IMG/VR virus record: IMGVR_UViG_3300024346_000486
Coordinates: 1-24,577 of that record
DNA: 24,577 bases
Direction: 5' to 3' (one strand)
From: a virus
This document shows positions 3,701 through 19,623 of this stretch, in pieces. The stretch's first letter is position 1. The number at the start of each line of letters is the position of its first letter. The notes below the pieces were generated by a model. The model was not told the origin of the DNA and made no database searches. It worked only from the letters and a program-made list of their open reading frames with translations. Made by a program: the position numbers and the translations under genes.

Positions 3701-6700
3701 TCTCAGACCTACTTGCTTGTGATAGAGTTGTGGTTGCTACTCTAAATTCTGCAGTTGAATCTTCATTTGCACTATCACCACCAACCAAGAGAGCATAATT
3801 AGATGCCTGAGGGGTGCCTCCAGTGCCGTCAGATAGTGTTGTTTGCGTCCTACCGCTAATGTATGTCGTGCCGACAATATCAAGGTTTGCTCTTGGATAT
3901 GTGGCAGTAGAAACAAATCCATCAGTATAATCACTAGAAACTGCTCTAGCAACTGTGTTAATACCTAATCTATAATCACCATAAACAGAAGTTTCTGTGC
4001 GTAGTGCTTCTGCACCAATAACACCAGTTTCCTTCCATTCAGATTCTCCTAGTGCAATCTCAATAGTTGGTTGAGTAGAGTCAGAGTTGACAGAATAGAT
4101 GTAAGGACCATTACCAACTAAGAGAGTCTCAGATCCTCTTTCAGTAATGAGATAAACATAACTATTTGACTCCAGATACTCGTAACCTTCAGCAGCATTA
4201 TTATATACAGTATGGACACCATTTAGTGTTGCCAATGTATCAATAGCACCAGTGATTTTAATCTGACTGGTTAAAGTAATACCTAAAGATGCACCAGGAT
4301 TAGACGCGCTGAAGTTAGTCTTACCAACTTGGAATATAAGTTTAACAACATTGAGGTTTGGATAGAATTCAACACCTGTAACATCAATTGCAGATTCGTT
4401 ACCAGCAGCAACTTTTAGAGTATATGGGACATAAGCGTTAGAATATACCCACCCAAGTGATCCTGTAAATCCAACTTGTCCACCTTTGAATAAAATATCA
4501 CCCGATAATGGGACAGTAGACCCAAAGGAGATAGACTGTGAAGAGTTGAATCTAGCCTTGGTGCCAGACTGATCCTGATTAGGTGCCATATTATCAACAC
4601 CTGACCTCAGAGTATATCTCTGTGTGCCTCTTGGATTGAGGTCAAAAATAGCAGCTCTTACTCTATTCTTATCAATAATGATATCACCAGCTCTTGTAGT
4701 ATCAAGTAGTGGGTCATCATCACCAGGGAGGACACCTTGTCTATCACCAGGACGTGATACGATTGTGAGTGAAGGAGGAGTCATCTTCGCTTCAAACTCA
4801 GGGTCCACATTAACAGTGATAGGAGAGTTAAAGAAGTTTCTTAAGTTAGGTGGAGCATTGAGAGTAATGATATTCTCAAACGTTACGGGGTCTTCAAAGA
4901 CAGTAACGAGACTACCGAATTCACCATCTTCACCATCTTCTTCTTCCAGAATTAGTGCGTCTAGGAATTCTTCTTCACCAGTAATAGCGTTAATCTTACG
5001 ATTACCGATATACAATTCACCATTAGAGTTGATGCCAGTGTAGAAGACAATACCTGCATCTTGCTTCTTAGCCTGTGCGTAGTAGTCTTGAATGTCAGTT
5101 AAGATAACTGTCTGTCTGACAGGGAAACCAGTTGAGTAGTTACCAGGACCGAATCCAAGATACTCAAACGTATGGTTACCAGCACGAGCAATAGATGGAC
5201 GGCGCAATTCGATGAAGAGTTTCTGCTCTAGTGGGAATCCAGAGTCACCTGCAATAGGAATTAGTCTCTCTTCTGCTCCAGATGATGCAGCACCAGTTTG
5301 TGCCTTAATTTCATTACTGCCAGTATAACTGTAGTCCCCAGACCCAGGATTAGAAACAAAATCTAAGATTGCTTCCTTAGTAGCAGAATTCTTAGCATCG
5401 TTGATTGTAACTAAACCATGGATATAGTTGTCAGCAGCACAAGATGCTGCTGGTGGGTCAAGGAGTGTAGAATCCTGGTTACCACCCTGCTCATCACTAC
5501 CATCATACTGGAAGAGTAATGGGTCATTTTTGTAGGTGAGAGGATATAGTCTAGATACAGGCTGACTAAACTTGAATTTTCTAAAGTTTTGCCCAACACC
5601 AGACCCTAAAGGTAAAGGTGCAATATCACCACGAACTACAGTTAGATAGTAGACACCATCTTGCTGACGTGGGATTCTTCTCTGAATCTCTTCGATACTA
5701 TAGATGTAGTATGTTTCGGTTAGGTCAGATGTATCTTCGACGCTAACAACTCTGTACTGTCTAGCAGCATCATCAGTAATAACATCACCAGGAGTGATGC
5801 AGTAGACGTTAGATGCTTCAACACCATATAAGAAGTCTTTCTTGTCTTCTTTACCAAAGTTAGGTCTATCCAAGACTTCAGCAGTAACGTCTGCTTGTCC
5901 TGAAATAGTTTGTCTGATATATGTTTGCTTGTTATCAGCAAAATCTAACGACCCGTTTACACCTTTAAGGATTAGATAGTTAAACGCTTCTAGACCACCT
6001 TCTACATTCTCAGTGCCAAACCATGAGTGGACAGTTGCACTACCAGTATAATCACCATACCAGGTAACAGTAGACCCCTCAACAAAGTCACCGTTACCAC
6101 CTTGAGGTTGTCCAACCTTAACTGATACAAATCTTTCTGCTTTGAGTGACTCTAGGTCTAGACCATGGTCAAAGACCGTCATCTCTAGATACCCATCAGC
6201 ATTTGTCCTTGCAGACTGAATGGTGAAAGATATATTAGATTCTGTCTTTGTGCCCTCAATACGCTTAGCAAAGACTGGATTGTATGGGTCATACTCAGTT
6301 AGAGCAGCAGATACGCCAAGTCTTTCTCTTGGTGATGGACCTTCTTCAAAGAATGTAGCATCTTTCTGGACACCAGAAGCAACTGGTTTGAGAAGTAATT
6401 TCTGTGGTAGAAGTTTTCTCTTCTCGTCAGTTCTGAGTCTGATTGCAAAACCTTCAAGCGGGTCTCTAACATCATCGCGATAGTTAGGAATGACATAACG
6501 TAGTTTGTATGACTTATCCTCTTTCTTTCTAGAATCGTCTGCTCTATAGAAGAATGCGTCAGGAGTGCGGGGTGGCTTATTGACATAGAGACTTCCTCTC
6601 GATGCATCCGCCATAGTGATTCTTTGATAAATCTCATTGCCAGATTGCAGAGTTTTGATATACCAAGATTGCTGTGCGGCATCATAACCCAGAGGACTTC

Positions 6701-9700
6701 TCTTCTTGGTTGCAAAGACGTGGAATGACTGACCACTTGGGAAGTTAAACTGGACAGCATTCTGCTTGTCGATAGCATTCTGGACAGTAAGATATAGCGA
6801 GAATTCGTTATTCTTAGTGTAAGTTGCTGGGCGACCGACATAATATGGTCTATCAATCTCTAGTCTACTACCAGTAGTCTTGGTGGGTAAAGTATCGAGA
6901 GCAGCACCAACTGCTTCGCCATTAACTAGATTTGCTTCTAGTGGATAGAAGAATACTTGCTGAATTTGGACACCATTGATAGCGGTATCAAAGACGTGGT
7001 TGGTAGTAGTCTCAAATACTCTGGAGCTAATTAACTCACAAGTATAACGATGTAGGTCATAGTTAACATCAGTTAGATACTGATGGACTTCAATCTCAAT
7101 ATCTTTACTGATTGTAGCAGTTTCAGACGAATAGATATAGTTACCTGCAGTAGCATTTTCAGGGCTAGTTGCAAGCATGAATGTTTGAGAATCATTAAAC
7201 TGTGCTGTCGCACCTCCAGATGAATAATCATTTGGTTGTGTAATCTTACCAGGAGCAATGATATAATACTTGGTATTAGTATCAAATCCTTTTGGTAGTC
7301 TAACCAGGCGCTTATCAACAGTATCATTTGCTGCTTTAGGCACAAGTCTAACAGGTGTGCCAGTTTCCATATTGTGTGGATTAGCACCACCAACACGGAA
7401 TAGTGTTGCTCTGGTTGCAAAGTCAGAAGTGTTGACTAGTTGAGAAACTAGAGGCTCTGCATCTACACCATTACGGATGATGCTGTCAACCACGCGCATC
7501 TTCTCAATAATAGCATCTTTTGTGCCTGCACACTTATCTGCACTAGAATCAAGAGTAATGCTATTATCTTTCTGTGGAGAATATCTAACAATATATTCAT
7601 CACTACCAGAATTTCTAGGAGGTAGTGGTCCTGTGCTCTCTAATGCCTCAATAAGGATATCAAACTCAGTAGCAATAGTGTAAGCAACATCAGCACAAAC
7701 AGGGACACCTGCTGTAGATGTATCAATAGTCAAATCTAAATTATAATCTAGAGTATTGCTTCCGTCCTTAACATATAGTGGGTCTGTAGCAAGACCATCA
7801 CCAGTTCTCCAATTACGCATTGCAAGAATTGCAAGGTCTCTTACCTTCTTATATGCATATACACTGATATTCAACTCTCCATATAGAGACTCTACCCCAG
7901 CGTTATATGTTGTAGCAGGTATTGCTAGAGCAGAATTATTAAGTTTATCAATTAGAATACCGAATAGAGTATCGATATTATTTCTTACATCTAAACAAGC
8001 ATTAGGATTATCGTTGGGGATATTAGGTCCAGCAACATCGACCTGAGCAGGTCCAGTAGAAATATCAAAGTCTCTGATATTGAGTTGATTAGTTACTGCT
8101 TTGAAGCATAGGTCTCTTGCTTCTGCAAATGCAGTGACTGATTGTGCCAATTCTCCTGCAAGACCATTACTGATAAGAGTATTACCAGTGCTATCAAAGT
8201 AAGATAGAGTTGCATTAATAACATTATAGTTACCACCAAGACCCAAATCTTCTGCAATTGCATCAACAACAATACCAATATCACGCTTGCACTTCTCTTG
8301 GAAGGAAGGTGAGCTGCCATAATTGATTCCAGGCACCGCAGGATTAGTTGTTGTGCCAGTAACCATATCACCCTGGCGGATTCTACCGAAAATAATCTCC
8401 GATAAAGTGTTTACAGTTGCTTGGACATTAGAGCAAGACTGCGAATCTTGGTTATTTGTAGTAACACCAGGAGTGCCAAATACACTGATACCAGACCCAG
8501 CATTTCCAGGTTGTGGGTCACCAGTAAGAGTCAAATCTTTAGCAAATAACTGGTTGTTAAATGCCAACTTCATCGTCTCAATCGCTGAAGTGAATGCAGT
8601 GATTGAAGGACCTTCTTCTCCCTGTAAACCTGCAGCAATCCATGCTTGCTCAACAGTATCTACAGTAACTACTAGGTTATCAGCAATATCTACACCACCG
8701 ATAGACCCACCAGGAATAGTGATACTGTCACTGGCATCGTAACCGTATCCACCATCTAGGATAGTTACACTGTCAACTACGCCACTAGAATCCCTAGTTA
8801 CACGGAAAGTAACTCCTACACCAGACCCATTAGTAGTGGTTTCTACACCATTATAAATTCTATCTGCTCGGTTAAGTAGAGTTGTGCCTGCAGCAGGAGT
8901 GAAGGTTAATACCTTACCATTTACATTACCTTCAACAAAGTATTGCTTAGCAAAATCAATGGTGTAAGAGTTGCCGAGTGTTGTGAGGTCTGTAGAGATG
9001 GCATCAATAAACATGCCCACGTCGCGCTTACACTTAGATTCACCATCAGTGATGATGCTGCCAGCAGACTCATTAGGTAGTGAGTTAGTATTTCCTGCTG
9101 TAAGTGCTGCAACAATAATACTGTTTAGGTTATCAATATTAATGCGGACATTAGAACAGGATAGTGTAGATTCATTGTCACCAGTAACACTGTCTGCAGT
9201 GATTGTTAAATCTTTAACTGTTAAATGATTGGTGACTGCTGCCTTCATCAACTCAGTTGCCTTGTTATAGGCAGTAATAGTCTGTGCCTCTTCACCAGTT
9301 AGTGACCCAGCACCAGGACCATTAAAATACTCTAAAGTAAATAGTCTAGTATATCTGTTACCACCTTGGAAAAGGTCGAGGGAGACAGAATCTACGAAGA
9401 TTGTAAGGTCACGAATACAAGATGCAGGACTTGGATTTACAAATCCAGGATGTTGGATGACAATCTCATCATATGCGCTTTGGACAATTTGAGTTTTATT
9501 CTGTTGAATTAGACGATATCCATCTGCAAATCTACCACCAGCATCTGTTTGTGCATCACCTGGAAAATAGAAATCTGGATGAGCAATAGCGACTGCAGCA
9601 ACTGCTTTGTCTTCAATATGCTTCTTATTCTGCTGGATTAAGCGATAAGCATCCTTATAACGTCCATATACATTAGTCTGAGCATCTCCACCATCGCTAA

Positions 9701-12635
9701 ATCCACTACCACCATAGTAGAAGTCAGGATATTCGATAGCAAGTTTTGCTGCTGCTTTGTCGATAATCTCTTTTCTATTAGAGAGAATTAGATTCTTACC
9801 ATCAAAGAAACGGTCTGATGCTCCGACATAAGATGTTGCAGCATCTACAATACCAGCATTGCCAAATGTAGCAAGGTCTTGAATTACACCATCAAGGATT
9901 AACTTGATATCACGCTTACACTTAGTCTCATCTGGGACATTAGTTGCAGGGTCCCACTGTTTAGCAAGAATGAGTGCTTCCTCAGCAATAAAGTCTTTGT
10001 TAGCAGTGATGAGGTTGCCAGCATCAAGTCCTCTACCAGAAGAACTAGCAAATTTCGCTTGATTTAACTCAAAATTGAGTGTAACTCCACCAGAAACTCC
10101 CTGAGCAGTAATAGTAGCAGTAGCGTTTACAGTATCAGTATCATTAGCATTGCCTAATCTGAATTGAGTGGTGCTAATAACTTCTTTAACATATGTGCCC
10201 GAAGGAATCGGATTTGTTTGACCAGAAGCAGGAGATGCTGTGACAAGCATACCCTCAACCAAACCAATGGTTGTATATGCTGCAGGGACATTAATAACAT
10301 CAGAATTCAATCCAGTGCTGCAATTCTCAATACGGAATTCCCAATTACGCATTGCTGCAATAGCAAGACCTCTAGCATAATTAAATGCATCGAGAGACTC
10401 TTCTTTTTCGCCTTCGATAAAGTCTAGGTTATTGCCAGTATAGTATGATTGACCTGCTTGGACACTATTGACGTTACCACCAACACGAAGGTCATTAGCA
10501 ACTGCTTCTAGGACATATCCAACGTCACGACGACACTTGCCAATAGTAATACCTTCTCTGGTAAGTAGATATGGATATTTACGAGTGATATATCCATATG
10601 TCTCGGATGCAATAAAGTCTCTATTAAGGTCAATCGAATTTGCTGCATCTTGGTCTTTATCCGAGATAACAGCATTATTTGAGGTTGGTGAAAGGATGGA
10701 GAGAGCAACATCATACTTTCTGAAACCAGCAGGAGATATTTCTGCTGAGCGAATAGACCCAGTAAATCCAGTTGCAGGGTCTAATTTTACATAGATTTTT
10801 TCATGTGACTGAGCACCTAGTCTGTAACCATTAACAGTAGTTGCTGGTTTTGATAGTGGGTCACTAGCTTCATCTGTGCCAAGATAAAGTCTTATAACAT
10901 TAACAGGACCACTAGTATCTAGAGAGCTACTACCTCGGACTTTAATCTGATTGAAGGTAAAGTATTGATACTTCTTAGTTGTAGTAGTAACCTTCCTAGG
11001 AGGAATGATATGAGAAATGTAACCACCTTGGTCCTGGGAGAATGCATATCCCTTGTAACCAATAGCATGAAGTGATGTGTTACCGAAGTTAGAGTTGGAG
11101 TTGGTGATAGACATATCACCACCAGATTCCATCAGGAAGTGGTCAGCAAAACCAACAGCGAAGATAGAAACGTTTTGGATGAATGCATCATTAGATGCTT
11201 TAACGTGGAAGTTTCTCCAGTCATCCTTCCAATATGCATCACCCTTGGTGTGATATGGAGTCGTTGCAAATGCGTCAGTTAGAGGTGCTTGATTCCAAGT
11301 GTTAGAGAATTCGTCATAGCGGATAAACGCACGGTCATCTCTTTGTAGCGAAACACCCGTATACTGTGCGATAACCATGGATTTGAAACCACTCGCCTTG
11401 CTACCATCAGCATGGATACCACAAATACCCCAAGTGGAGCGAATAGAGACGTTAAAGACGTATGGTGATGCAGATTCTACAGAGTCAATTTCTGCTTGTG
11501 TAGATGCATTAGTATCAAGGTCTGGTGGCGTTATAGAGGTGCCAATTTTATCACCAAGACCAACTGCTGCAGCATTCTTACCGATAACACGATAACTAAA
11601 TTCTTTAGGGTCAGTAATGCTGATTTCTCTAACAGAGAATACACCTGTCAGAGGATCATTAGAAAGAGGAATGGGCTCTGACGCTCCTGCTGGTAGCGTG
11701 GAGCGAAGACTAGCCACGGCAACCGCCTGGCCCACATAGTATCCATGATTTGTTTTCGTTTTAACAGTAACATCTAATGCTGAAGTGCCAGCAACATCAT
11801 TGACTTCAATAGAGTCAATACGAATAGCATCTTGAAGAGGACCAACAATTCTGTTTTCCTGTGGTCTCTGCTCAAATTCGCCTGGATCATCAATAGTAGG
11901 TTGGAATAGAGAGAATGCACGAGCAATCTTTCTATAAAGTAAACCTAGGTCATCTTTACTTGCAAATTCAAAGTTGCAAATTTTGTGGTGAGAATAATAA
12001 GGAATTGTTGTGAGAGTATTACCTGGTTGATAATAAACCTTACCAATATTCTCTTGCGTGTTAAACAAAGGAGAATTACGCTCAACGTCACCATCTAGAA
12101 TGGTAAACTGCCAGAAGTAGCAACCACCCGTAACGTTAAACATCGTTGTTCTACCGATGTCAGAATCAGCAGGATCAGGTACATAAAGAGGATGTAAACG
12201 AGTCCTACGAAGGTCCATACCCACCAAAGAGGTGCCACGGGGAATAGTGGCACCACCATTAGGACCATTAAACTTATAAAGAATATTATTAGGATTGCCT
12301 AGGTCAACAATAGACTCATCTTCCCATTCTTGAGTTGCTTGATTGTAAGCAAAAGGAGCAATTTCCTCAGGGTTTGCAATACCAGGACGGTTATCAATAT
12401 AGTGGTTGCCTGGGGACAACATAATAGTAAACTGGTCAAATCTATCATTTTCCTGACCAGGAACATACGAATATCTACCTACTTCTAGGAATGCTCTTTG
12501 AATTGTAAAAAAGGGTCTCGTAGGAGAGTTACCTCTATTGTCTAATGCATCCGAAGCATTGAAATCATCAGGTGAAACGTATAAGTATCTACCAGTTTTA
12601 CTGGAAATTAGATTCTCTAACTTGGTTAATGGCAT
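768..12635 (-). CDS. Giant 3955-aa virion structural protein, probable tail fibre/host-contact protein
   Basis: One open frame of 3955 codons, ATG at 12635 and TAA at 768-770. I recognise no catalytic domain. The N-terminus (YLYVSPDDFNASDALDN, then PFFTIQRAFLEV) resembles beta-helix fibre modules. Residues about 695-1500 hold at least five repeats headed by C-[KR/I]-R-D followed by a hydrophobic helix and DL..GGN or a similar turn. Residues about 950-1060 add three tandem units with the core HPDFY or YPDFY and YRLIQQNK. An acidic stretch near residue 2560 is followed by long Ser/Thr/Asn/Gly-rich beta-type sequence, including RGQRGTAAAAH near 3480. The C-terminus (about 3830-3955) ends in QQGWFLMEI and looks like a discrete fibre-tip domain. 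Giant proteins with CKRD repeats are, as I recall, typical of cyanophage virions. Placement between spike/hub genes and a collar-domain gene supports a baseplate-attached fibre. The exact role is unknown. Confidence 0.8.
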   Translation of the reverse strand: MPLTKLENLISSKTGRYLYVSPDDFNASDALDNRGNSPTRPFFTIQRAFLEVGRYSYVPGQENDRFDQFTIMLSPGNHYIDNRPGIANPEEIAPFAYNQATQEWEDESIVDLGNPNNILYKFNGPNGGATIPRGTSLVGMDLRRTRLHPLYVPDPADSDIGRTTMFNVTGGCYFWQFTILDGDVERNSPLFNTQENIGKVYYQPGNTLTTIPYYSHHKICNFEFASKDDLGLLYRKIARAFSLFQPTIDDPGEFEQRPQENRIVGPLQDAIRIDSIEVNDVAGTSALDVTVKTKTNHGYYVGQAVAVASLRSTLPAGASEPIPLSNDPLTGVFSVREISITDPKEFSYRVIGKNAAAVGLGDKIGTSITPPDLDTNASTQAEIDSVESASPYVFNVSIRSTWGICGIHADGSKASGFKSMVIAQYTGVSLQRDDRAFIRYDEFSNTWNQAPLTDAFATTPYHTKGDAYWKDDWRNFHVKASNDAFIQNVSIFAVGFADHFLMESGGDMSITNSNSNFGNTSLHAIGYKGYAFSQDQGGYISHIIPPRKVTTTTKKYQYFTFNQIKVRGSSSLDTSGPVNVIRLYLGTDEASDPLSKPATTVNGYRLGAQSHEKIYVKLDPATGFTGSIRSAEISPAGFRKYDVALSILSPTSNNAVISDKDQDAANSIDLNRDFIASETYGYITRKYPYLLTREGITIGKCRRDVGYVLEAVANDLRVGGNVNSVQAGQSYYTGNNLDFIEGEKEESLDAFNYARGLAIAAMRNWEFRIENCSTGLNSDVINVPAAYTTIGLVEGMLVTASPASGQTNPIPSGTYVKEVISTTQFRLGNANDTDTVNATATITAQGVSGGVTLNFELNQAKFASSSGRGLDAGNLITANKDFIAEEALILAKQWDPATNVPDETKCKRDIKLILDGVIQDLATFGNAGIVDAATSYVGASDRFFDGKNLILSNRKEIIDKAAAKLAIEYPDFYYGGSGFSDGGDAQTNVYGRYKDAYRLIQQNKKHIEDKAVAAVAIAHPDFYFPGDAQTDAGGRFADGYRLIQQNKTQIVQSAYDEIVIQHPGFVNPSPASCIRDLTIFVDSVSLDLFQGGNRYTRLFTLEYFNGPGAGSLTGEEAQTITAYNKATELMKAAVTNHLTVKDLTITADSVTGDNESTLSCSNVRINIDNLNSIIVAALTAGNTNSLPNESAGSIITDGESKCKRDVGMFIDAISTDLTTLGNSYTIDFAKQYFVEGNVNGKVLTFTPAAGTTLLNRADRIYNGVETTTNGSGVGVTFRVTRDSSGVVDSVTILDGGYGYDASDSITIPGGSIGGVDIADNLVVTVDTVEQAWIAAGLQGEEGPSITAFTSAIETMKLAFNNQLFAKDLTLTGDPQPGNAGSGISVFGTPGVTTNNQDSQSCSNVQATVNTLSEIIFGRIRQGDMVTGTTTNPAVPGINYGSSPSFQEKCKRDIGIVVDAIAEDLGLGGNYNVINATLSYFDSTGNTLISNGLAGELAQSVTAFAEARDLCFKAVTNQLNIRDFDISTGPAQVDVAGPNIPNDNPNACLDVRNNIDTLFGILIDKLNNSALAIPATTYNAGVESLYGELNISVYAYKKVRDLAILAMRNWRTGDGLATDPLYVKDGSNTLDYNLDLTIDTSTAGVPVCADVAYTIATEFDILIEALESTGPLPPRNSGSDEYIVRYSPQKDNSITLDSSADKCAGTKDAIIEKMRVVDSIIRNGVDAEPLVSQLVNTSDFATRATLFRVGGANPHNMETGTPVRLVPKAANDTVDKRLVRLPKGFDTNTKYYIIAPGKITQPNDYSSGGATAQFNDSQTFMLATSPENATAGNYIYSSETATISKDIEIEVHQYLTDVNYDLHRYTCELISSRVFETTTNHVFDTAINGVQIQQVFFYPLEANLVNGEAVGAALDTLPTKTTGSRLEIDRPYYVGRPATYTKNNEFSLYLTVQNAIDKQNAVQFNFPSGQSFHVFATKKRSPLGYDAAQQSWYIKTLQSGNEIYQRITMADASRGSLYVNKPPRTPDAFFYRADDSRKKEDKSYKLRYVIPNYRDDVRDPLEGFAIRLRTDEKRKLLPQKLLLKPVASGVQKDATFFEEGPSPRERLGVSAALTEYDPYNPVFAKRIEGTKTESNISFTIQSARTNADGYLEMTVFDHGLDLESLKAERFVSVKVGQPQGGNGDFVEGSTVTWYGDYTGSATVHSWFGTENVEGGLEAFNYLILKGVNGSLDFADNKQTYIRQTISGQADVTAEVLDRPNFGKEDKKDFLYGVEASNVYCITPGDVITDDAARQYRVVSVEDTSDLTETYYIYSIEEIQRRIPRQQDGVYYLTVVRGDIAPLPLGSGVGQNFRKFKFSQPVSRLYPLTYKNDPLLFQYDGSDEQGGNQDSTLLDPPAASCAADNYIHGLVTINDAKNSATKEAILDFVSNPGSGDYSYTGSNEIKAQTGAASSGAEERLIPIAGDSGFPLEQKLFIELRRPSIARAGNHTFEYLGFGPGNYSTGFPVRQTVILTDIQDYYAQAKKQDAGIVFYTGINSNGELYIGNRKINAITGEEEFLDALILEEEDGEDGEFGSLVTVFEDPVTFENIITLNAPPNLRNFFNSPITVNVDPEFEAKMTPPSLTIVSRPGDRQGVLPGDDDPLLDTTRAGDIIIDKNRVRAAIFDLNPRGTQRYTLRSGVDNMAPNQDQSGTKARFNSSQSISFGSTVPLSGDILFKGGQVGFTGSLGWVYSNAYVPYTLKVAAGNESAIDVTGVEFYPNLNVVKLIFQVGKTNFSASNPGASLGITLTSQIKITGAIDTLATLNGVHTVYNNAAEGYEYLESNSYVYLITERGSETLLVGNGPYIYSVNSDSTQPTIEIALGESEWKETGVIGAEALRTETSVYGDYRLGINTVARAVSSDYTDGFVSTATYPRANLDIVGTTYISGRTQTTLSDGTGGTPQASNYALLVGGDSANEDSTAEFRVATTTLSQASRSESGTADTDNGRVGINVNDAALDKNFVVSGDARITGDFTFETDIDVNGGDIRSTSTNFAIANQSTTTGLTVAGYAQNIQIGNLATGFQNIDIGTASTAATTLDIHTSSTDSTVNIGTVANNNTAYKSLITVGGAFANNQDSVFNVKNFQTIVDGVLTLNGGEINTTSPTGEFKMFESGLTKLQIGLSVGTLEIGGVAGTSKIRNGLHVLGSSLFESDMTQNGGLKNTNLGIDRNVFGLIRVANVSRTSNVATVTTIDSHQLTTGNNVEIETSFNSFNPTSVVSVTVTGTNTFTYSNAGGDVATTSTTGTVIRDNVGENQAVGSLANLNIDYFSVVKNLDGLLSITTVSSSKLIVASAPYSANDAIVFFDTGNLTGISTNTTYYIDDRDSTGFTLKDASDNSIVIGLVSGATDAGNTRLQLQSTRIDTSGDIPWGDDNFKTGNLTTDGQEIYELPINNPSGVSINQLLLIDAEIVKTVDYPTSLVPDAPIPYSVQVIRGQRGTAAAAHEDDSRIFRLVEQQNASYIFPSPLTATDQVVNVAEFSANIKVDDLFRLNKNDLDTGGEYVRISVINPADAQSFTINNGDFGIEGAETDALEVFKVISTTGQTQVTGDVVIGYDTAKPFINAANDQNFADSTGLQSSTATGSTLQTTGGGNLTVHNSIELSGNTNTSNPGKQYFVITNGALPKFYVESASGDTKLYNGADFKIFKDSFFATGNFDKSRTDAATNIALEVLGATGNTKVAGTLRAGNDLTVGTLQNSANTETGSNPFTTRFSVDAQLGSTVIGRALTSANTGATLTVHGTYTNSPSVADNYLSINNLGENNAKPFRIRGDASIEAFGHENFYNRNGGRKTIFVSTQGNNDSSAYLLAPNLQYLVRPSSTLVLRLPSEAITGDTIRVVDVGGALNYNVNLVVRAPLGVKLQGGATGSSLGGASNYGGGELVVNTPNAGFGLIYVGNTDADGNGVAGEQQGWFLMEI

Positions 12636-12678: not shown

Positions 12679-12686
12679 TATTTATA
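12679..12686 (-). promoter_or_regulatory. T4-type late promoter core TATAAATA
   Basis: The minus strand reads TATAAATA, an exact match to the T4 late promoter -10 box recognised by the phage sigma factor gp55 with the sliding clamp. It lies 44 bases upstream of the giant gene's ATG, which predicts a 5' leader of about 35-40 bases. I found no other exact copy on my reading. It is well placed to drive the giant gene and the collar gene behind it as a late unit. Confidence 0.75.
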
Positions 12687-12710: not shown

Positions 12711-13253
12711 ATGCTCCCAACTTGTGACTACATCAAATTAAACAAACAGTCATTATACAATTCTGTAAGAAATTTAACGATAAATCCAAAATATTCGTCT
12801 TTTTCTCCACCAGAAATATATAAATCTTACTGCACTGACCAGTCTAAATCGATAAATTTTTACACTCAAAATTTTGACACATATTTACTAAAACAATATG
12901 ATACAGTAAATAGTGATGTCGTTACCGATGACGATTTATTCAGGATTTTATCTGATAGACGTATATTAAATGTATTTTACTTTGAAGTATGGGGGTCTGT
13001 TATTGAGCATAAAGACCCCAAAGGACGCTATTTGGGTTACCCACATGATGAATACCAAACCACTATTATGCCAATAGACATCCCAACATCAGATAAAAGC
13101 ATATTTAATACTTTTTATAATAAAGAAAGTGTGGATTTAAAAGAGGGAGAGTTTTTTTATTGGGACGTAACAAAAGTTGCTCACTCATGGCATTTTGACT
13201 ATTCAAAAGTCAATAAAAAATTTAAGTTATTGCATCTCGATTACATAGAGTAA
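12711..13253 (+). CDS. 180-aa protein, possible 2OG-Fe(II) oxygenase-like double-stranded beta-helix
   Basis: This is the only plus-strand gene I accept. It starts MLPTCDYIKLNKQS and ends LLHLDYIE. I do not recognise it as a whole, but the spacing of likely metal ligands fits the oxygenase/cupin fold: HKD (His100, Asp102) as HxD, His158 in VAHSW as distal ligand, and Lys172 fourteen residues later where such enzymes keep a basic residue for the cosubstrate. LKEGEFFYWD before the distal His suits the typical turn before that strand. The gene is AT-rich (hand-counted 60-base lines of 22-38% GC, against about 50% in a sampled spike line), which suggests a foreign origin. It runs convergently to the tRNA-Thr unit and divergently from the giant gene. 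No strong ribosome site precedes the ATG and no convincing plus-strand promoter is visible. Substrate unknown. Confidence 0.6.
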   Translation: MLPTCDYIKLNKQSLYNSVRNLTINPKYSSFSPPEIYKSYCTDQSKSINFYTQNFDTYLLKQYDTVNSDVVTDDDLFRILSDRRILNVFYFEVWGSVIEHKDPKGRYLGYPHDEYQTTIMPIDIPTSDKSIFNTFYNKESVDLKEGEFFYWDVTKVAHSWHFDYSKVNKKFKLLHLDYIE

Positions 13254-13275
13254 AACCCCCTAAAAAAGGGGGTTT
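13253..13275. terminator. Bidirectional hairpin terminator between convergent genes
   Basis: A perfect 8-bp stem, AAACCCCC at 13253-13260 paired with GGGGGTTT at 13268-13275, encloses a 7-base A-rich loop. The stem begins inside the TAA stop of the plus-strand gene. In the plus direction it ends in TTT. In the minus direction it ends in GGGGGTTTTAC, so it can also stop transcripts leaving tRNA-Thr, which lies 19 bases away. The U tracts are short, so efficiency is uncertain. Confidence 0.8.
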
Positions 13276-13293
13276 GCACTTCCTTCACACGGA

Positions 13294-13365
13294 AGCCAAA
13301 CACAGGATTTGAACCTGCGACCTGAGCTTTACAAAAGCCCTGCTCTACCACTGAGCTAGTTTGGC
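13294..13365 (-). tRNA. tRNA-Thr (anticodon UGU)
   Basis: On the minus strand the acceptor GCCAAAC pairs with GTTTGGC. The D arm is GCTC/GAGC around AGTGGTA. The anticodon stem GGGCT/AGCTC (one G-U pair) holds the loop TTTGTAA with anticodon TGT. The T arm is GCAGG/CCTGT around TTCAAAT. The discriminator base is T and CCA is not encoded. All four arms fold, giving 72 bases. It is the last element of the early-type cluster and sits 19 bases from the terminator. It probably supports translation of ACA codons. Confidence 0.93.
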
Positions 13366-13562
13366 AAATTTTTCTCTTCTTTCTTTGTTTTGAAATAAAG
13401 TTTGTAATATTTTTTCTTCATTTCATCTAGTGTATTCATATCTCCTTCAAAACCCATATATTTAAGATTTTGATAAGTCCCCTCCATGTCACTAATAAGT
13501 AGAAGAAGATGGGTAGCAGTTACAGGTCTACCACCAAGAGTATAGTTTTCGGAGGATTTCAT
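13356..13562 (-). CDS. Hypothetical 68-aa basic protein
   Basis: The frame starts at ATG 13562, overlapping the stop of the oxygenase gene in a 4-base ATGA junction, which indicates translational coupling. It contains VTATHLLLLISDMEGTYQNL, a probable helix, and a strongly basic C-terminal half (MKKKYYKLYFKTKKEEK). The stop codon TAG lies inside the 5' end of tRNA-Thr, so the last ten bases are shared with the tRNA. I do not recognise a family. The coupled start and the lack of a competing frame make it probably real. A regulatory or structural partner role is possible but unsupported. Confidence 0.6.
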   Translation of the reverse strand: MKSSENYTLGGRPVTATHLLLLISDMEGTYQNLKYMGFEGDMNTLDEMKKKYYKLYFKTKKEEKNLPN

Positions 13563-14116
13563 GCGATGCTAAAATTGCAGGATAGCGTTTTACGAAGCAC
13601 ATTACTTTTATGAGGACTTACTCCATGCAACATAGTGCCAGGAAAGAATAAAACTTGTCCTGCTTTATATTCTGGCATCCACTTATCACCTGCATTCAAT
13701 TCTTCATAATTTAATGCTGCCATTAACTTATTGCTAGCAATATTATTATATCTATTATAGAAATAAAATTGACTAAAGTCTTTACCGTCATTTAGAAAAA
13801 AGACGCTGGCAATATCTGTTTTATGGTCGTGTATTTCTTGAAAATATCCTTCTTTGTAGTAATTAATCCACGGATACATAATATTCATGGTAACACGACT
13901 ATGAAATGCTTCATCTATAAACAAATCTAATGAAGGTTTAATAATATTAACAAACTCTGGCGTAGTAATATAAGTAGTATCTATTTTACAATCATTTTGC
14001 CATGATTCCCGATGATTATTAACTTCGTTTTTAGAATCTGTATATTCTTTCAATTCTTTAAAATTGGGAATATCATATTTCCAATAAAAAAGAGTAGGAT
14101 AACAACTATTATACAT
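13559..14116 (-). CDS. 2OG-Fe(II) oxygenase family protein
   Basis: A 185-aa protein with the layout of the phage/cyanobacterial 2-oxoglutarate and iron dependent oxygenases (2OG-FeII_5 type). WINYYKEGYF leads into EIHDHKTDIASVFFL, with His96 and His98 as the HxH/D-type metal pair on the first strand. GQVLFFPGTMLHGVSPH carries the distal His164, and Arg175 in VLRKTLSCNF would bind the 2-oxoglutarate carboxylate. Such enzymes hydroxylate proteins, nucleic acids or small molecules; the substrate here is unknown. The second metal ligand is not the classical Asp, although Asp101 is near. It starts two bases after the 88-aa gene and overlaps the 68-aa gene by four bases, so the three form one translational unit. 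The DNA is AT-rich compared with the structural genes. Family call fairly sure. Confidence 0.85.
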   Translation of the reverse strand: MYNSCYPTLFYWKYDIPNFKELKEYTDSKNEVNNHRESWQNDCKIDTTYITTPEFVNIIKPSLDLFIDEAFHSRVTMNIMYPWINYYKEGYFQEIHDHKTDIASVFFLNDGKDFSQFYFYNRYNNIASNKLMAALNYEELNAGDKWMPEYKAGQVLFFPGTMLHGVSPHKSNVLRKTLSCNFSIA

Positions 14117-14118
14117 TT

Positions 14119-14385
14119 TTAATCATCTACAGGCAACAAAGCAGGGTCATTTACTTCAATATCAAACATTAATGGATGGCATTCTTCCATTACAAGATAA
14201 TTGCAAATTTGATATAAGATTTCATCATCAAAATCGCGATATTTTAATGCCTCTGCTTGTATTTCAGGATGGTCTTGCAATACTTTTGGTAATTCATCAA
14301 AAGTATACGGCATACCTTGAATAAAATACATTCTAACTACTTCGCCCAAGTAAAAGACGTACGATTGAGATAGTGTGTATTTCAT
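14119..14385 (-). CDS. Hypothetical 88-aa acidic protein
   Basis: It starts MKYTLSQSYVFYLGEVVRMYF and ends NDPALLPVDD. The N-terminal quarter is aromatic and hydrophobic, and the rest is acidic and probably helical (ELPKVLQDHPEIQAEALKY). I do not recognise a family. It lies 34 bases downstream of tRNA-Leu and two bases before the oxygenase gene, so it belongs to the same transcript. No clear ribosome site precedes the ATG. The compact, uninterrupted position between two convincing genes supports a real gene; no function can be assigned. Confidence 0.65.
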   Translation of the reverse strand: MKYTLSQSYVFYLGEVVRMYFIQGMPYTFDELPKVLQDHPEIQAEALKYRDFDDEILYQICNYLVMEECHPLMFDIEVNDPALLPVDD

Positions 14386-14419
14386 GTTATTTTCACTAAT
14401 CGATAGTATTTAGTGGAAA

Positions 14420-14503
14420 TAGGGCGAGAGAGACTTGAACTCTCACGAGCATATGCCCAACAGATTTTAAGTCTGGTGCGTCTACCGATTCCGCCACCGC
14501 CCC
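14420..14503 (-). tRNA. tRNA-Leu (anticodon UAA)
   Basis: A minus-strand class II tRNA of 84 bases. The acceptor GGGGCGG pairs with TCGCCCT (G-U at both ends of the stem) with discriminator A. The anticodon stem CCAGA/TCTGT holds the loop CTTAAAA with anticodon TAA. A long variable arm (TTGGGCATATGCTC region) follows, and the T arm is GAGAG/CTCTC around TTCAAGT. CCA is not encoded. It starts three bases after the stop of the 60-aa gene, so it must be processed out of the mRNA. It would serve UUA codons. Confidence 0.95.
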
Positions 14504-14506
14504 ATA

Positions 14507-14689
14507 TTATCGCAGTATTACATTTTCAGTCTTAATCAGTTTCTTACACTGGTCCAGTAATTCAATTAATTCATTGATACTACCGCATTTGAGGGTAATT
14601 ACTGATAAATCTTCCGCCTCTACGATTATTTTTTTATTGTACAAATCTACTCTGATAATTTCAAGAAGTTTGGTAGATTTATCAAACAT
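14507..14689 (-). CDS. Hypothetical 60-aa protein
   Basis: It starts at ATG 14689, with an in-frame GTG one codon earlier as an alternative, and overlaps the last codons of the 82-aa gene by eight bases. The sequence begins MFDKSTKLLEIIRVDLYNKK and ends KKLIKTENVILR. A short beta-rich N-terminal half (IIVEAEDLSVITLKCGS) is followed by a helix (INELIELLDQCKKLI). I do not recognise a family. The overlap with the upstream gene and the tRNA three bases downstream place it second in the early-type cluster. Small size and position suggest an early host-interaction or regulatory protein, but nothing in the sequence proves it. Confidence 0.65.
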   Translation of the reverse strand: MFDKSTKLLEIIRVDLYNKKIIVEAEDLSVITLKCGSINELIELLDQCKKLIKTENVILR

Positions 14690-14930
14690 CACTCATATCA
14701 CTCAGACGAGGCATAAACAGATAACCAATATCATCACCTTCTTCAGCAGCACCCCACTCGTGAAATTCTTGGCAAATAGACATGATGTCACGCCAGGACT
14801 CAGTTTCCTCAAGTTGCTTCATACGTGCTTCCATGTTGTCGAGAATTGGGTCGATAACATCTTCGACACTGGTTGATTCAACTTCGTTGATTTGACCGTC
14901 GTTTCCGTAGTCGAGCATAGTCCTGTCCAT
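14682..14930 (-). CDS. Hypothetical 82-aa acidic protein, first gene after the tandem promoters
   Basis: It starts MDRTMLDYGNDGQINEVES and is strongly acidic, with a predicted helical core (VEDVIDPILDNMEARMKQLEE) followed by SWRDIMSICQEFHEWGAAEE. I do not recognise a family. It begins only 12 bases after the -10 box of the proximal promoter, so its message would have a leader of about five or six bases and no room for a Shine-Dalgarno site. Transcripts from the distal promoter would have a leader of about 60 bases, yet the bases just upstream (ACAAAAACAAAC) also contain no such site. Immediate placement behind two strong promoters argues for an abundant early protein; the role is unknown. Confidence 0.7.
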   Translation of the reverse strand: MDRTMLDYGNDGQINEVESTSVEDVIDPILDNMEARMKQLEETESWRDIMSICQEFHEWGAAEEGDDIGYLFMPRLSDMSDV

Positions 14931-14942
14931 GTTTGTTTTTGT

Positions 14943-14971
14943 ATTATAGCAGAGTCTCTAGAGGCTGTCAA
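14943..14971 (-). promoter_or_regulatory. Proximal sigma-70 promoter, perfect consensus
   Basis: The minus strand reads TTGACA (14971-14966), a 17-base spacer, then TATAAT (14948-14943), a perfect match to the bacterial housekeeping consensus. Transcription should start near 14936, about five or six bases before the 82-aa gene's ATG. The spacer contains the palindrome CTCTAGAG. Such boxes suit an early phage promoter read by host RNA polymerase before phage factors appear. Confidence 0.88.
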
Positions 14972-14995
14972 CCCCCTTCAACTGAGCACATCGTT

Positions 14996-15024
14996 ATTAT
15001 AGCGGCAATCAGGGGTCTTGTCAA
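14996..15024 (-). promoter_or_regulatory. Distal sigma-70 promoter, perfect consensus
   Basis: The minus strand reads TTGACA (15024-15019), a 17-base spacer, then TATAAT (15001-14996), identical in its boxes and spacing to the proximal promoter 53 bases downstream. Predicted start is near 14989, giving a leader of about 60 bases that contains the proximal promoter. Confidence 0.88.
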
Positions 15025-15096
15025 GTATAAAAACCTTTTCGGGTCAAATTTTGGCGGCGATTTTGTAGGTGCCTTTTGGTAACCAGGGGTCGGTTT

Positions 15097-16689
15097 TCAA
15101 TTCAGGTTAATTCCTGCAGGTCCATCGATGTCCACCGTGACGCCTGTAATCTTGATTATCCCCTCACTGGTCAGGTTGAGACTGCTATACTTCTCATTTA
15201 CAACACCTGTGACCGTTTTAGTTACAGCACCTGTAATTGTTTCAGTCAATGCACCAGTCTGGGTAGTGGTAATGGCACCCGTAATAGTATTTGTGATAGC
15301 ACCAGTGATGCTATTTGTAAAGTTGCCAGTAAGTGTTGATGTAACTGCTCCTGTGCCTGTTATAGTGAGTGGTTTAGTTGTTGTTAAAGTATTGAGTGCT
15401 GTCTCAAACTTGAGGAAGTCTGTGCTTACTGCTTCAGCACCGATACCAATTTCTGCACTCTTAATGCCTTTGAATTTAGCATCAAGTTTTGCAGTGCCTA
15501 GGAGACTCCCTGTCATCGAATCTAGGATGACATCGCCTGGTTTGCCTACAAGCGTTTCCGTGTCTCCACGTCCACCTACAAGACCAATGAAACCTGCTGT
15601 GGTGGCGATAGCAGCGTTGCCTCTGCCAAGAAGAGTTGTAACCCAATCACCATTCCATATCTCAGTCTTCATGACTGTCTTGCCAGGAGTATTACCTTTG
15701 TTGACAACAATTGCCAGATTCTCTAACTGTGTAGCACCCCAGACTGGTGGGACTGCTGGTCCAGTTGGATTAACTATAGTGCCCTGTGCTTCAAGTCTCA
15801 TCTTCTGACCAGCAGCAATCCAGACATTACCTGAAGTTGAGAGATTCAAATCGCCAGATTGTCTAACAGAATTGGTGCCCATAGGCGACCCAGTTTCTTG
15901 TACTTTGGCAGCAGTTGTTTTCTCCGTGCTCTGCACAGACTTAGTTGTTACTGTAGTTGCTTCATTAATATACTTTCCTGCTTTGATGATGACCTCACCA
16001 CCGCCTGCATCAGGCAACTCAAATCCAAATAGACCACCAAGTGCTGCAGCTGCTACTGCTGTTGGTTCGTATCCTGCTAAGATATTAACAGCTCTTGTAG
16101 CATTGAGTGTTAATGTCTCAGCGGCATTCATAGTGATATTTCTACCACTGAAGAAAATATCTCCATTGGCACATTCAATATCCAATCCACCATTACTTAC
16201 ATTAATAGAAAATGCAGGATATCTCTTCTTATCTACTGACTGTGTGTTAGAGTTACTAACATCACCTTCTTCGTCATGTTGACCCGATGCATTAACATTA
16301 ATAGCAAGAGATGTGCCAACATTTACTCTGCAATTTGCTTGAGACTCAATTTCAATCCTTCCACAAGTTAAGTCTTCTGCAACTGGACTTGCTGCTTTGA
16401 CTTGAATAGTGCCTTTCTCATCTACACTAAAGTGAGACCCAGTGCTGCCAATGATACCAAAACTACTGTCACCGAAAGGATTTTCTGCAGTAAACCAGAT
16501 GTTATTGTTTCTAATACCTACGTCAGCTGATGGAGGAATTAGACTGACTTGACATCCTTCTAAGGGAAATAATGCTTCTGTCTTAGTCCAGTCAATCGTA
16601 GATGCATCAAATGCCATCTCAGTGTCTGCCCAAAGATTCTTGGAATCTACACCGTTAAATTTTGCATATGAAAATTTTTCGCTTGCCAT
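15097..16689 (-). CDS. Baseplate spike protein with gp5-type C-terminal octapeptide beta-helix
   Basis: A 530-aa protein starting MASEKFSYAKFNGVDS. The ribosome site AGGAG (16703-16699) overlaps the upstream gene's stop and lies nine bases before the ATG. Residues 453-500 are six contiguous octads of the form [ILVQ]TG followed by five residues: LTGNFTNS, ITGAITNT, ITGAITTT, QTGALTET, ITGAVTKT, VTGVVNEK. This matches the VxGxxxxx octapeptide period of the T4 gp5 C-terminal triple-stranded beta-helix. The end, VTVDIDGPAGINLN, resembles the termini of spike and VgrG-type needle proteins. Middle segments (GRNITMNAAETLTLNA and others) also look beta-helical. As a trimer it would form the membrane-piercing needle below the hub. 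It has no lysozyme domain. It follows the gp5-like OB-domain gene directly, so the two may together replace T4 gp5. Confidence 0.8.
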   Translation of the reverse strand: MASEKFSYAKFNGVDSKNLWADTEMAFDASTIDWTKTEALFPLEGCQVSLIPPSADVGIRNNNIWFTAENPFGDSSFGIIGSTGSHFSVDEKGTIQVKAASPVAEDLTCGRIEIESQANCRVNVGTSLAINVNASGQHDEEGDVSNSNTQSVDKKRYPAFSINVSNGGLDIECANGDIFFSGRNITMNAAETLTLNATRAVNILAGYEPTAVAAAALGGLFGFELPDAGGGEVIIKAGKYINEATTVTTKSVQSTEKTTAAKVQETGSPMGTNSVRQSGDLNLSTSGNVWIAAGQKMRLEAQGTIVNPTGPAVPPVWGATQLENLAIVVNKGNTPGKTVMKTEIWNGDWVTTLLGRGNAAIATTAGFIGLVGGRGDTETLVGKPGDVILDSMTGSLLGTAKLDAKFKGIKSAEIGIGAEAVSTDFLKFETALNTLTTTKPLTITGTGAVTSTLTGNFTNSITGAITNTITGAITTTQTGALTETITGAVTKTVTGVVNEKYSSLNLTSEGIIKITGVTVDIDGPAGINLN

Positions 16690-16701
16690 TTGTTATATCT
16701 C

Positions 16702-19623
16702 CTACGGACAGTCGATGTATTCACCTTCAGGTGTTGGACCAACGACCTCTGCAATCTCTCTTACATCTTGCTTATCTAGGCAAGCAACGTTAGCGATTGC
16801 AATGGCACCCACACCCTGAGATGATGCTACAATTTTAACCTTTGGATAAGTTGTAAAGGTCCTTGATTTATCTCGGACTCTGATATCAACTAGCACTCCA
16901 TCTCTAATAATTGCTTCAGCAATATCCAAGTCTCCATCAACAAAAACAGCAGGTGGCTCATCGAAACCAAATCCTGTTTTAATGATAGTAAACCCAGTGA
17001 TAATACAATCTAAATTAGTTGGTGGATTAGGTGGATATCCTCTACCAGGACGCATGATTCTAATCTTCTTAAGGAAACCATTAGCATCTAAATCTGCTAC
17101 TGCTGATGCACCATATCCTTTACCATTACCTTGCACATAAATCTTTGGTGCTTGTCTATACGGACTACCACCATTACATATAGCAATGTCAATAATCTCG
17201 CCATCTTCTGAAACTACTGGGTCACATGCAATAGGTGGTGATGGTGTAACTGGAGTTGGTGATGGGTTGGGGAAGGGAGCATTGCCTTCGACAGCAAACT
17301 GGTCTGCCGCAAAACCATTCTTAAGTGCAACAAAGACAGCAATAGTTGTAGAGAAACTCAACTTATCTGCAAAGGTGATAAGTTTCTTCGCTTTGTTGTC
17401 CTTAATATTAAATTTATAGGATAGTGTATTATCAAAGACATCACTCAGTGATAACTCTGGGGCAAAGATATAGAAGTCAAGCACCGTGCCATTCGGGACA
17501 TTTTCAGTCTCCAATTCAATAGTTACAGTCTCTCCTCCTTTAACTAACAGTGGTCTCGCAGTAAGAGTATACTTGGCACCAATTGACCCGATTGGAGTGT
17601 TAATACCTGATGTGAATGACGATGTTGCACTACCTCCAATAGAAACAGTAGGAGCAGATGTATTAGCATTGCCTCCATCATATACAAAATCACTAATACC
17701 ATCTAACAAAGTAAATGTAGATGTTTTACCACTAACTGATACACCGATGTTACTGACATGTCCCGCTGATAGTAGTGGTCCTCCCGTTGGTGGAGTATTT
17801 GGGTCTGCTATTAGTGTTAATGATGCTGGTTGTGAGTTAATAGATGAAGGATTAGTGCTTGCATCTCCACTTACTACACATCTATAACTACCTTCTGCAT
17901 CAGTTGTAAAACTAGTTGTTGTATTACCTAAGTCTGTCCATGTATCCGTGCTTATTGTATAATACTGCCAATTATATGTTACTCGACCAGCATCAGACCT
18001 AGCACCTACGCATTCAAATGTATGTGTATTTCCTCGAATAATCGTTGCACCTACAGGATCAATAATAATCTCAAGAGTAACATCTGTTGGTGGTGTAGGG
18101 ACATCCTGTTGTGGTGGCACGGGGATTGTTTCTGTTGCAAATACACCACCAGTGATAGCAATATTTAATACAGGTGTGACAGGTTTCTTTGCATCATCAC
18201 ATGCACCGATAGCGGGTGATGGTTTAGTATCTGCACTAATTGCTGCTAGTAAATCATCTAGGTCGTCTGCTAAACCTCTACCCTTAGTCTTTGGACCTTC
18301 ACCACAATCAGTAATAACTTTCTTACATTCTTTTGGTAGACCTGAGCAAGAAATGCCCAAGAGGTCCATGATTTCTGAGATAGTAGAGAAGATATCATTT
18401 AGTGGTGCAGCAATACCTTCTAAGATACTAAGTAGTGGTTCAATGATAGAGTTGATAGCATCTTTTAAAAACTTCTCGATGCCACTCATCAATCCATTGA
18501 CTAGTGCTTCAATACCACATAGAGCATCAGACCAGAAGTCATCAAGAGCACCAAAAATGAAGTCCGTAATGAAATCTAATAGTCTAGTATAAAGGTCATC
18601 AATACTGCAACCAATCTTTGCTAGAGTATCTTCTAAAAACTTTTGAATTTTATCAAGAATCTTTTCTGGATTCTTTGGGTCGTATGGTGGTTTTGCGTCT
18701 GCTGGTTTTACTTTATCAGTGATGAGTCCTAGTAGAGTGTTGATAAGTAACTGGACACCATCCTTAACAAGGTTGTATAACTTACCTTTCAACCAAGAAT
18801 AACCTTGTGAAATAATTGCCAGGATTTTATTGATGTATCCCATGACAAATGTTTCGCCTTCACGGGCATACCCTGTCACCTTGCTGGTGAGGTAACTTCC
18901 TACCTGCCCTCCAGACTCAGAGATTGCCTTAAACATTTCAGACAATACAATCTCAAGTTTGGATGCTGTGCCTCCAGTAGGACAGTTTGCCTGTGAGATA
19001 GTTGTGCATTTAACAGCAGCTTCATTCAGTGAGCTACCTGCACAGTTTAGATAAGCAATAGCAGGTGCCTGCCCATATCCTTTCTTAGGATTAGTTGCTG
19101 TGCCAGCTGGTGCTCCTGCCTGTGCTACTTGACCAGCAGCTGCTGCTTCTACTTCTGCTTTATTAAGTGGTGTTACTACTTGAGGAGTGCCTGCTACAGG
19201 TCCAGGAGCAAAGTTTCTAAATGCTCTACATCCCTCGGAATTCTCTTTTAAAAATTGTGATATGGCGGGGTCTGTTTCGGACCTGGCATTGCGGATTGCA
19301 CCAATGCTACCAAGAATATATGGTTGCTGTGCCATTCCAGCATCCATAAAAAATCCAATAACCCAATCACCATATGTTAGGTTAGTTGTTGCGCCTCCAC
19401 TTGCAGTGAAAGCATTAGTTGTTGGAGCGACAGAGTTTGCCCATGGCAATTCGTCCGTCCCCTGACCTTCACAGTCAGCGAGATGGTGACCAACAATTCT
19501 AACCTTATAGCGATTAGAATTCTTTACATTTTCATCGGTCTTTTCGACTTGCCCCACCCACCAGTGAAATCCATCTTTGCCTACAAAGTTGGATGAGCGG
19601 ACGCCGTAACTCTCAAATGCCAT
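16702..19623 (-). CDS. gp5-like baseplate hub protein with OB domain and Ig-like insertion, no lysozyme
   Basis: A 973-aa protein. Residues about 1-125 (FHWWVGQVEK, YKVRIVGHH, ELPWANSVAP, YGDWVIGFFMDAG, QQPYILGSIG) show the gp5/VgrG N-terminal OB-type domain that sits on the gp27 hub ring. Residues about 220-440 are rich in amphipathic helices. Residues about 525-605 form an Ig-like domain with Cys538 (HTFECVG) and Cys582 (SYRCVVSG) in the usual disulfide positions and a Trp (YNWQYY) between. Residues about 805-940 repeat a Gly-Tyr module (GSPYRQAPKIYVQG, GRGYPPNPP). I see no T4-lysozyme-like catalytic Glu-Asp-Thr region, although T4 gp5, at 575 residues, carries one. The gene starts two bases after the 75-aa gene and is followed by the spike gene. 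The hub assignment is strong; the role of the central and C-terminal parts is unknown. Confidence 0.82.
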   Translation of the reverse strand: MAFESYGVRSSNFVGKDGFHWWVGQVEKTDENVKNSNRYKVRIVGHHLADCEGQGTDELPWANSVAPTTNAFTASGGATTNLTYGDWVIGFFMDAGMAQQPYILGSIGAIRNARSETDPAISQFLKENSEGCRAFRNFAPGPVAGTPQVVTPLNKAEVEAAAAGQVAQAGAPAGTATNPKKGYGQAPAIAYLNCAGSSLNEAAVKCTTISQANCPTGGTASKLEIVLSEMFKAISESGGQVGSYLTSKVTGYAREGETFVMGYINKILAIISQGYSWLKGKLYNLVKDGVQLLINTLLGLITDKVKPADAKPPYDPKNPEKILDKIQKFLEDTLAKIGCSIDDLYTRLLDFITDFIFGALDDFWSDALCGIEALVNGLMSGIEKFLKDAINSIIEPLLSILEGIAAPLNDIFSTISEIMDLLGISCSGLPKECKKVITDCGEGPKTKGRGLADDLDDLLAAISADTKPSPAIGACDDAKKPVTPVLNIAITGGVFATETIPVPPQQDVPTPPTDVTLEIIIDPVGATIIRGNTHTFECVGARSDAGRVTYNWQYYTISTDTWTDLGNTTTSFTTDAEGSYRCVVSGDASTNPSSINSQPASLTLIADPNTPPTGGPLLSAGHVSNIGVSVSGKTSTFTLLDGISDFVYDGGNANTSAPTVSIGGSATSSFTSGINTPIGSIGAKYTLTARPLLVKGGETVTIELETENVPNGTVLDFYIFAPELSLSDVFDNTLSYKFNIKDNKAKKLITFADKLSFSTTIAVFVALKNGFAADQFAVEGNAPFPNPSPTPVTPSPPIACDPVVSEDGEIIDIAICNGGSPYRQAPKIYVQGNGKGYGASAVADLDANGFLKKIRIMRPGRGYPPNPPTNLDCIITGFTIIKTGFGFDEPPAVFVDGDLDIAEAIIRDGVLVDIRVRDKSRTFTTYPKVKIVASSQGVGAIAIANVACLDKQDVREIAEVVGPTPEGEYIDCP

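Follow-up and report, generated by a model that had tools for sequence, protein, structure and literature searches.

Host-like promoters of T4-like cyanophages have been described in cyanomyoviruses such as Syn9 and S-PM2, where they combine TTGACA and TATAAT hexamers with ~17-nt spacing, are specific to the gene strand and include one copy at the same site as the locus described here. The two sites analysed in this work, P1 and P2, belong to this known class in an unusual doubled, perfect form: the window (the whole 24,577-bp stretch of a virus record that was analysed) has two adjacent perfect copies, whereas a single strong copy occupies this site in the cultured phages examined. Tandem promoters are familiar from bacterial rrn P1-P2, which likewise place two sigma-70 promoters in series, with an A/T-rich stretch upstream and tRNA genes downstream, although the spacing of the pair described here is 53-83 bp and the operon is that of a phage. 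Promoter-early stem-loop (PeSL) cassettes of T4-type phages, reportedly described by Arbiol in 2010 and Comeau in 2014, resemble the locus in that a promoter module marks the edge of a gene block and the genes downstream are exchangeable; unlike them, P1 and P2 have no stem-loop beside them. The early promoters of T4 are also near-consensus sigma-70 promoters read by the host polymerase before replication, but they are aided by Alt/ModA modification, which is absent in cyanomyoviruses (PMC2984593), and the timing of P1 and P2 is probably middle. Cyanomyoviruses lack alt, modA, modB, motA and asiA, and their pre-late genes probably depend on unmodified host polymerase with sigma-70, according to a review (PMC2984593).

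The main gain from the locus is a conserved, testable regulatory site that is ordinary in kind: a conserved control point in very abundant marine viruses, where a tRNA/accessory-gene island within late structural genes carries host-type promoters.

The tandem sites and their late-gene surroundings

The window is a fragment (24.6 kb) of a T4-like cyanomyovirus related to S-CAM3, which was also the closest cultured match across the tRNA-Leu/GC730 stretch. Synteny with Kyanoviridae was clear (gp5-like hub, gene in the baseplate lysozyme position, small ORFs and tRNAs, giant tail-fibre-like ORF). The promoter region and the flanking late genes comprise the following features:

16702-19623, minus strand: gp5-like baseplate hub gene, assigned by synteny
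15097-16689, minus strand: late gene in the baseplate/lysozyme position, ending just upstream of P1; weak phrog_430 match; in cultured phages the syntenic gene is the base plate lysozyme gene
15025-15065, minus strand: A/T-tract-rich, UP-element-like stretch just upstream of P1, its A-tract columns conserved in the alignment
14996-15024, minus strand: P1, TTGACA-17-TATAAT, predicted start ~14989, conserved in 10 distinct tandem loci
14972-14995, minus strand: 24 conserved nt separating P1 from P2, AACGATGTGCTCAGTTGAAGGGGG, most of them predicted initial transcribed sequence of P1
14943-14971, minus strand: P2, TTGACA-17-TATAAT with an extended -10 (TGC before TATAAT), predicted start ~14936
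12679-12686, minus strand: T4-type late promoter motif TATAAATA, preceding the tail-fibre-like ORF
768-12635, minus strand: tail-fibre-like ORF of 3955 aa, start at 12635, downstream of the small-gene cluster

An earlier note on this DNA had described two tandem perfect sites on the minus strand with 17-nt spacers, 53 apart, amid late structural genes, and both parts of that description are confirmed: the sites lie at 15024-14996 and 14971-14943 with starts 53 bp from each other, and the flanks are the baseplate gene upstream and the 3955-aa tail-fibre-like ORF downstream. They are the sole perfect TTGACA/TATAAT matches in the 24,577 bp when spacers of 15-19 nt are allowed, while dinucleotide shuffles held a mean of 0.07 perfect sites and none of 100 shuffles held two. 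Both have sigma-70/SigA-type hexamers with spacing within 16-18 nt, beyond chance expectation, and stand directly upstream of a same-strand gene with a ribosome-binding site, which is weaker in the window and clearly AGGAG-like in four relatives (L008-L011). Neither is of the T4 late type (TATAAATA without a -35), both having TATAAT plus a -35 hexamer.

Perfect sites with 16-18-nt spacers numbered 1-8 per genome in 15 complete cyanomyovirus genomes of roughly 170-198 kb, nearly all on the gene-bearing strand and no two within 150 bp of each other. The exact double pattern with 53-bp spacing was present in only three further IMG/VR contigs, and perfect tandem pairs with looser spacing in at least 119 stretches among 2.9 million contigs; such pairs are rare, yet not unique. 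Their presence elsewhere might be taken to mean that P1 and P2 are chance matches or a compositional artefact, but the shuffles, the conservation of the hexamers against drifting spacers (below) and the synteny contradict this, and we give it almost no credence. The conservation and the synteny bear out the earlier contention that the two copies have been selected.

Conservation and recombination of the promoters

Relatives in IMG/VR were collected via the 78-aa protein encoded by the first gene downstream and via gp5. The tandem pair was found in 10 distinct loci (the window, L004-L008, L036/L043, L037, L038 and L040), in which both promoters always scored at least 11/12 and were 53-83 bp apart. 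Across these loci, hexamer conservation was 0.94-0.97 against 0.60-0.70 for the spacers, and all counterparts of P2 scored 11-12/12 and retained TGC. After the P1 -10 hexamer, 24 nt of the AACGATGTGCTCGGTTGAAGGGG type were near-invariant, whereas the promoter spacers varied, and a 19-nt core within these 24 nt, taken with G as the variable base, occurred in only nine IMG/VR contigs, all of them loci of the tandem group. Because the stretch and the leader after P1 fold no better than shuffles, we propose that it may act as an initial transcribed sequence that tunes promoter escape. Near-consensus promoters can be escape-limited, and for one of them, T5 N25, control of this kind is documented (PMC12464699). 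The folding result spoke against a structured leader after P1; a coding leader was also rejected, as the micro-ORF beginning MCSVEG, although open in the majority of tandem loci, is reduced to ATG-TAG in L008.

Three relatives (L009-L011) have only one promoter, a hybrid. Its left part resembles P1 of L036 (0.89-0.95, versus 0.45 for P2) and its right part matches P2 (0.97, versus 0.46 for P1), while the 81 bp between the promoter parts are missing. The promoter copies therefore recombine, be it by loss or by gain of a promoter, and the doubling is dispensable, one promoter being sufficient. These hybrids, the mostly single-promoter second clade of the 78-aa gene and the overlap of the P1 and P2 polymerase footprints at 53 bp would all accord with the use of only one of the two promoters, the other surviving as a remnant or decoy through recombination between promoter repeats. 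A remnant would decay, however, and both sites score at least 11/12 in 10 distinct loci despite their diverged spacers; we therefore hold single use to be distinctly unlikely.

A nucleotide-similarity search with the P1/P2 stretch gave no meaningful match in cultured phages. By position, 13 of the 14 cultured cyanomyoviruses examined have a promoter scoring at least 10/12 after the gp5/lysozyme gene, and in S-CAM1, S-CAM3, Sf-FR1 and Syn9 (18628-18656 in Syn9) the match is a full 12/12; Sf-CH1b is the exception, with no promoter there that reaches 10/12. Across whole genomes, sites on the gene strand that have 17-nt spacing and score 11/12 or better number 94 in 1.15 Mb, roughly one per 12 kb, so that the position after gp5/lysozyme is strongly enriched. 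The first gene downstream varies among the cultured phages, being gp135, a DUF680 protein, T4-GC 49 or 649, or tRNA-Leu directly.

Two further features of the cultured phages were observed at this site. In Sf-CH1b (L088, 9842-10012), the S-RSM4/S-CAM4-type site lacks its strong second promoter, and the remaining upstream segment is joined directly to the post-promoter sequence of relatives, as if deleted between promoter-like repeats. In S-PM2 (L080), S-H9-2 (L081) and Syn1 (L085), the intergenic region with the host-like promoter also contains, after that promoter, a CTAAATAA motif that may be late-promoter-like, an arrangement that suggests dual control.

At this site, then, the promoter is kept and the flanking genes are exchanged, as in PeSL cassettes. 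The site could be a PeSL-like mobile promoter cassette in which the repeated promoters would mediate exchange of downstream genes, a proposal compatible with host-polymerase use of P1 and P2. The changing first gene beside a constant promoter, the hybrid promoters of L009-L011 and a second setting of the 78-aa gene, which there follows tail-fibre-assembly and oxygenase genes and again has its promoter, are in its favour; against it, no significant stem-loop adjoins the promoters, and PMC4503421 disputes that PeSLs drove shuffling in the S-PM2 ORFanage, a different cyanophage region. We regard a cassette of this kind as rather doubtful. The search for a stem-loop next to P1 yielded no supported fold (z -0.73 for 15025-15097; consensus fold -0.51 kcal/mol). 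The pair and the near-invariant 24-nt sequence might also be a functional device, of escape-limited or mutually exclusive promoters tuned by this sequence, that additionally serves cassette-swap recombination at the late/middle boundary, PeSL-like without the stem-loop; this we put forward only as a speculation of low probability.

The downstream unit and its first gene

The unit after P1 and P2 consists of five small ORFs, tRNA-Leu and tRNA-Thr, all leftward, followed by an intrinsic terminator:

14682-14918, minus strand: first gene, 78 aa, unknown function, weak phrog_4892 match
14507-14692, minus strand: 61-aa ORF, unknown function, holding a promoter-like sequence at 14664-14636
14419-14504, minus strand: tRNA-Leu (TAA)
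14119-14385, minus strand: 88-aa GC730-like ORF, phrog_4134, syntenic with T4-GC730 of cultured phages
13559-14116, minus strand: 2OG-Fe(II) oxygenase, 185 aa, PF13759 and phrog_81
13356-13562, minus strand: 68-aa ORF, DUF7212/phrog_741 by family matches
13294-13365, minus strand: tRNA-Thr (TGT)
13256-13271, minus strand: intrinsic terminator, AAACCCCC-loop-GGGGGTTTT, at the end of the unit

Rfam identified the two tRNAs and nothing else. The terminator fold (13245-13280) has an energy of -16.9 kcal/mol (z -4.1), and this terminator, together with the separate late motif at 12686-12679, makes the cluster a self-contained transcription unit inside the late genes. A 180-aa ORF on the plus strand (12711-13253), with a weak DUF7018 match, is convergent with the cluster and meets it at the terminator.

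Very probably, P1 and P2 are genuine SigA/RpoD host-polymerase promoters that launch a self-contained pre-replicative unit of early-to-middle, most likely middle, expression. Both sites would be read by the host RNA polymerase in unmodified form, carrying its primary sigma factor (SigA/RpoD); the transcript would cover the 78-aa gene, the 61-aa ORF, tRNA-Leu, the GC730-like gene, the 2OG-Fe(II) oxygenase, the DUF7212 gene and tRNA-Thr and would stop at the terminator (13271-13256), and the surrounding late genes would use the phage's own late promoters, of gp55 type. Direct computation gave the sites, their conservation despite spacer drift, the coupling to the downstream gene, the cyanomyovirus synteny, the terminator and the separate late motif; initiation at ~14989 and ~14936, the choice of sigma factor and the timing are what we infer from the sequence. 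The proposal of the earlier note that host polymerase reads a small-gene/tRNA cluster between late genes thus draws good inferential support from the conservation, synteny, gene coupling and terminator.

The first gene probably starts at the ATG at 14918 (MLDYG...) and not at the ORF-finder ATG at 14930, since most relatives lack an equivalent of the latter; the predicted 5' leader would therefore be ~18 nt from P2 and ~71 nt from P1. Close relatives of the 78-aa protein share an invariant QEFHEWG core. The protein had no match in Pfam or NCBIfam, and its AlphaFold model is helical with low confidence (pLDDT 61.8). A profile search identified 47 loci encoding the family, with 35 distinct upstream regions. 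In 34 of these 35, the 200 bp examined contained an exact TTGACA in a promoter scoring 10/12 or more, and the copy closest to the match was no more than ~72 bp away from it; among mono-shuffled controls, 61 of 2350 upstream regions reached that score. The gene and its promoter occur in two genomic contexts. In the second, which holds many of the loci and is exemplified by L022, the gene follows tail-fibre-assembly, 2OG-oxygenase and phrog_4883 genes, and the promoter in this clade is mostly single and weaker, with an extended -10 that is mostly TACAGT. This coupling offers a way into a phage protein family that is uncharacterised and has a promoter of its own in each context.

A third promoter-like sequence (14664-14636, minus strand, 10/12) lies in the 61-aa ORF of the window, and its counterpart scores 12/12 with a 17-nt spacer in ten relatives (L004-L008, L036-L038, L040 and L043). 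It could reflect constraint on the encoded peptide (D.I.VDLYN) or be a real internal promoter for tRNA-Leu.

Probable timing and joint use of the promoters

Doron et al. are said to have found in 2016 that host-like promoters drive middle genes in Syn9 and P-TIM40 and that early genes use another element. In the relatives, some perfect promoters stand before talC, hli, mazG and tRNA genes; in P-HM2, talC and other auxiliary metabolic genes belong to the middle class (PMC5082946). On these combined grounds we favour middle timing for the P1/P2 unit, and the earlier suggestion that the promoters fire in the first minutes is not upheld; nor is the suggestion that transcription from them is very strong, since near-consensus promoters can be escape-limited. 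Immediate-early firing would agree with a full host sigma-70 consensus, which requires no phage factor, and with a review that equates sigma-70-like promoters with early genes (PMC2984593), but it runs against the middle-gene associations just given and appears to us somewhat unlikely. Syn9 has both a mapped transcriptome and a perfect promoter at the equivalent site, so published data can answer when the unit is transcribed.

The doubling would probably raise output or robustness. At a spacing of 53 bp, however, a polymerase complex on P1 reaching to +20 covers the -35 of P2, and the two promoters would therefore compete or alternate and not simply add.

Among the perfect promoters of cyanomyoviruses, one type, TTGACAGAGCAAAGATGAAGCTGTATAAT, is recurrent (KU686198, PV340855, KU686193, AJ630128, MW147367 and GU071105). 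In S-PM2, this promoter lies within the end of gp41 just before mazG, where it doubles as coding sequence.
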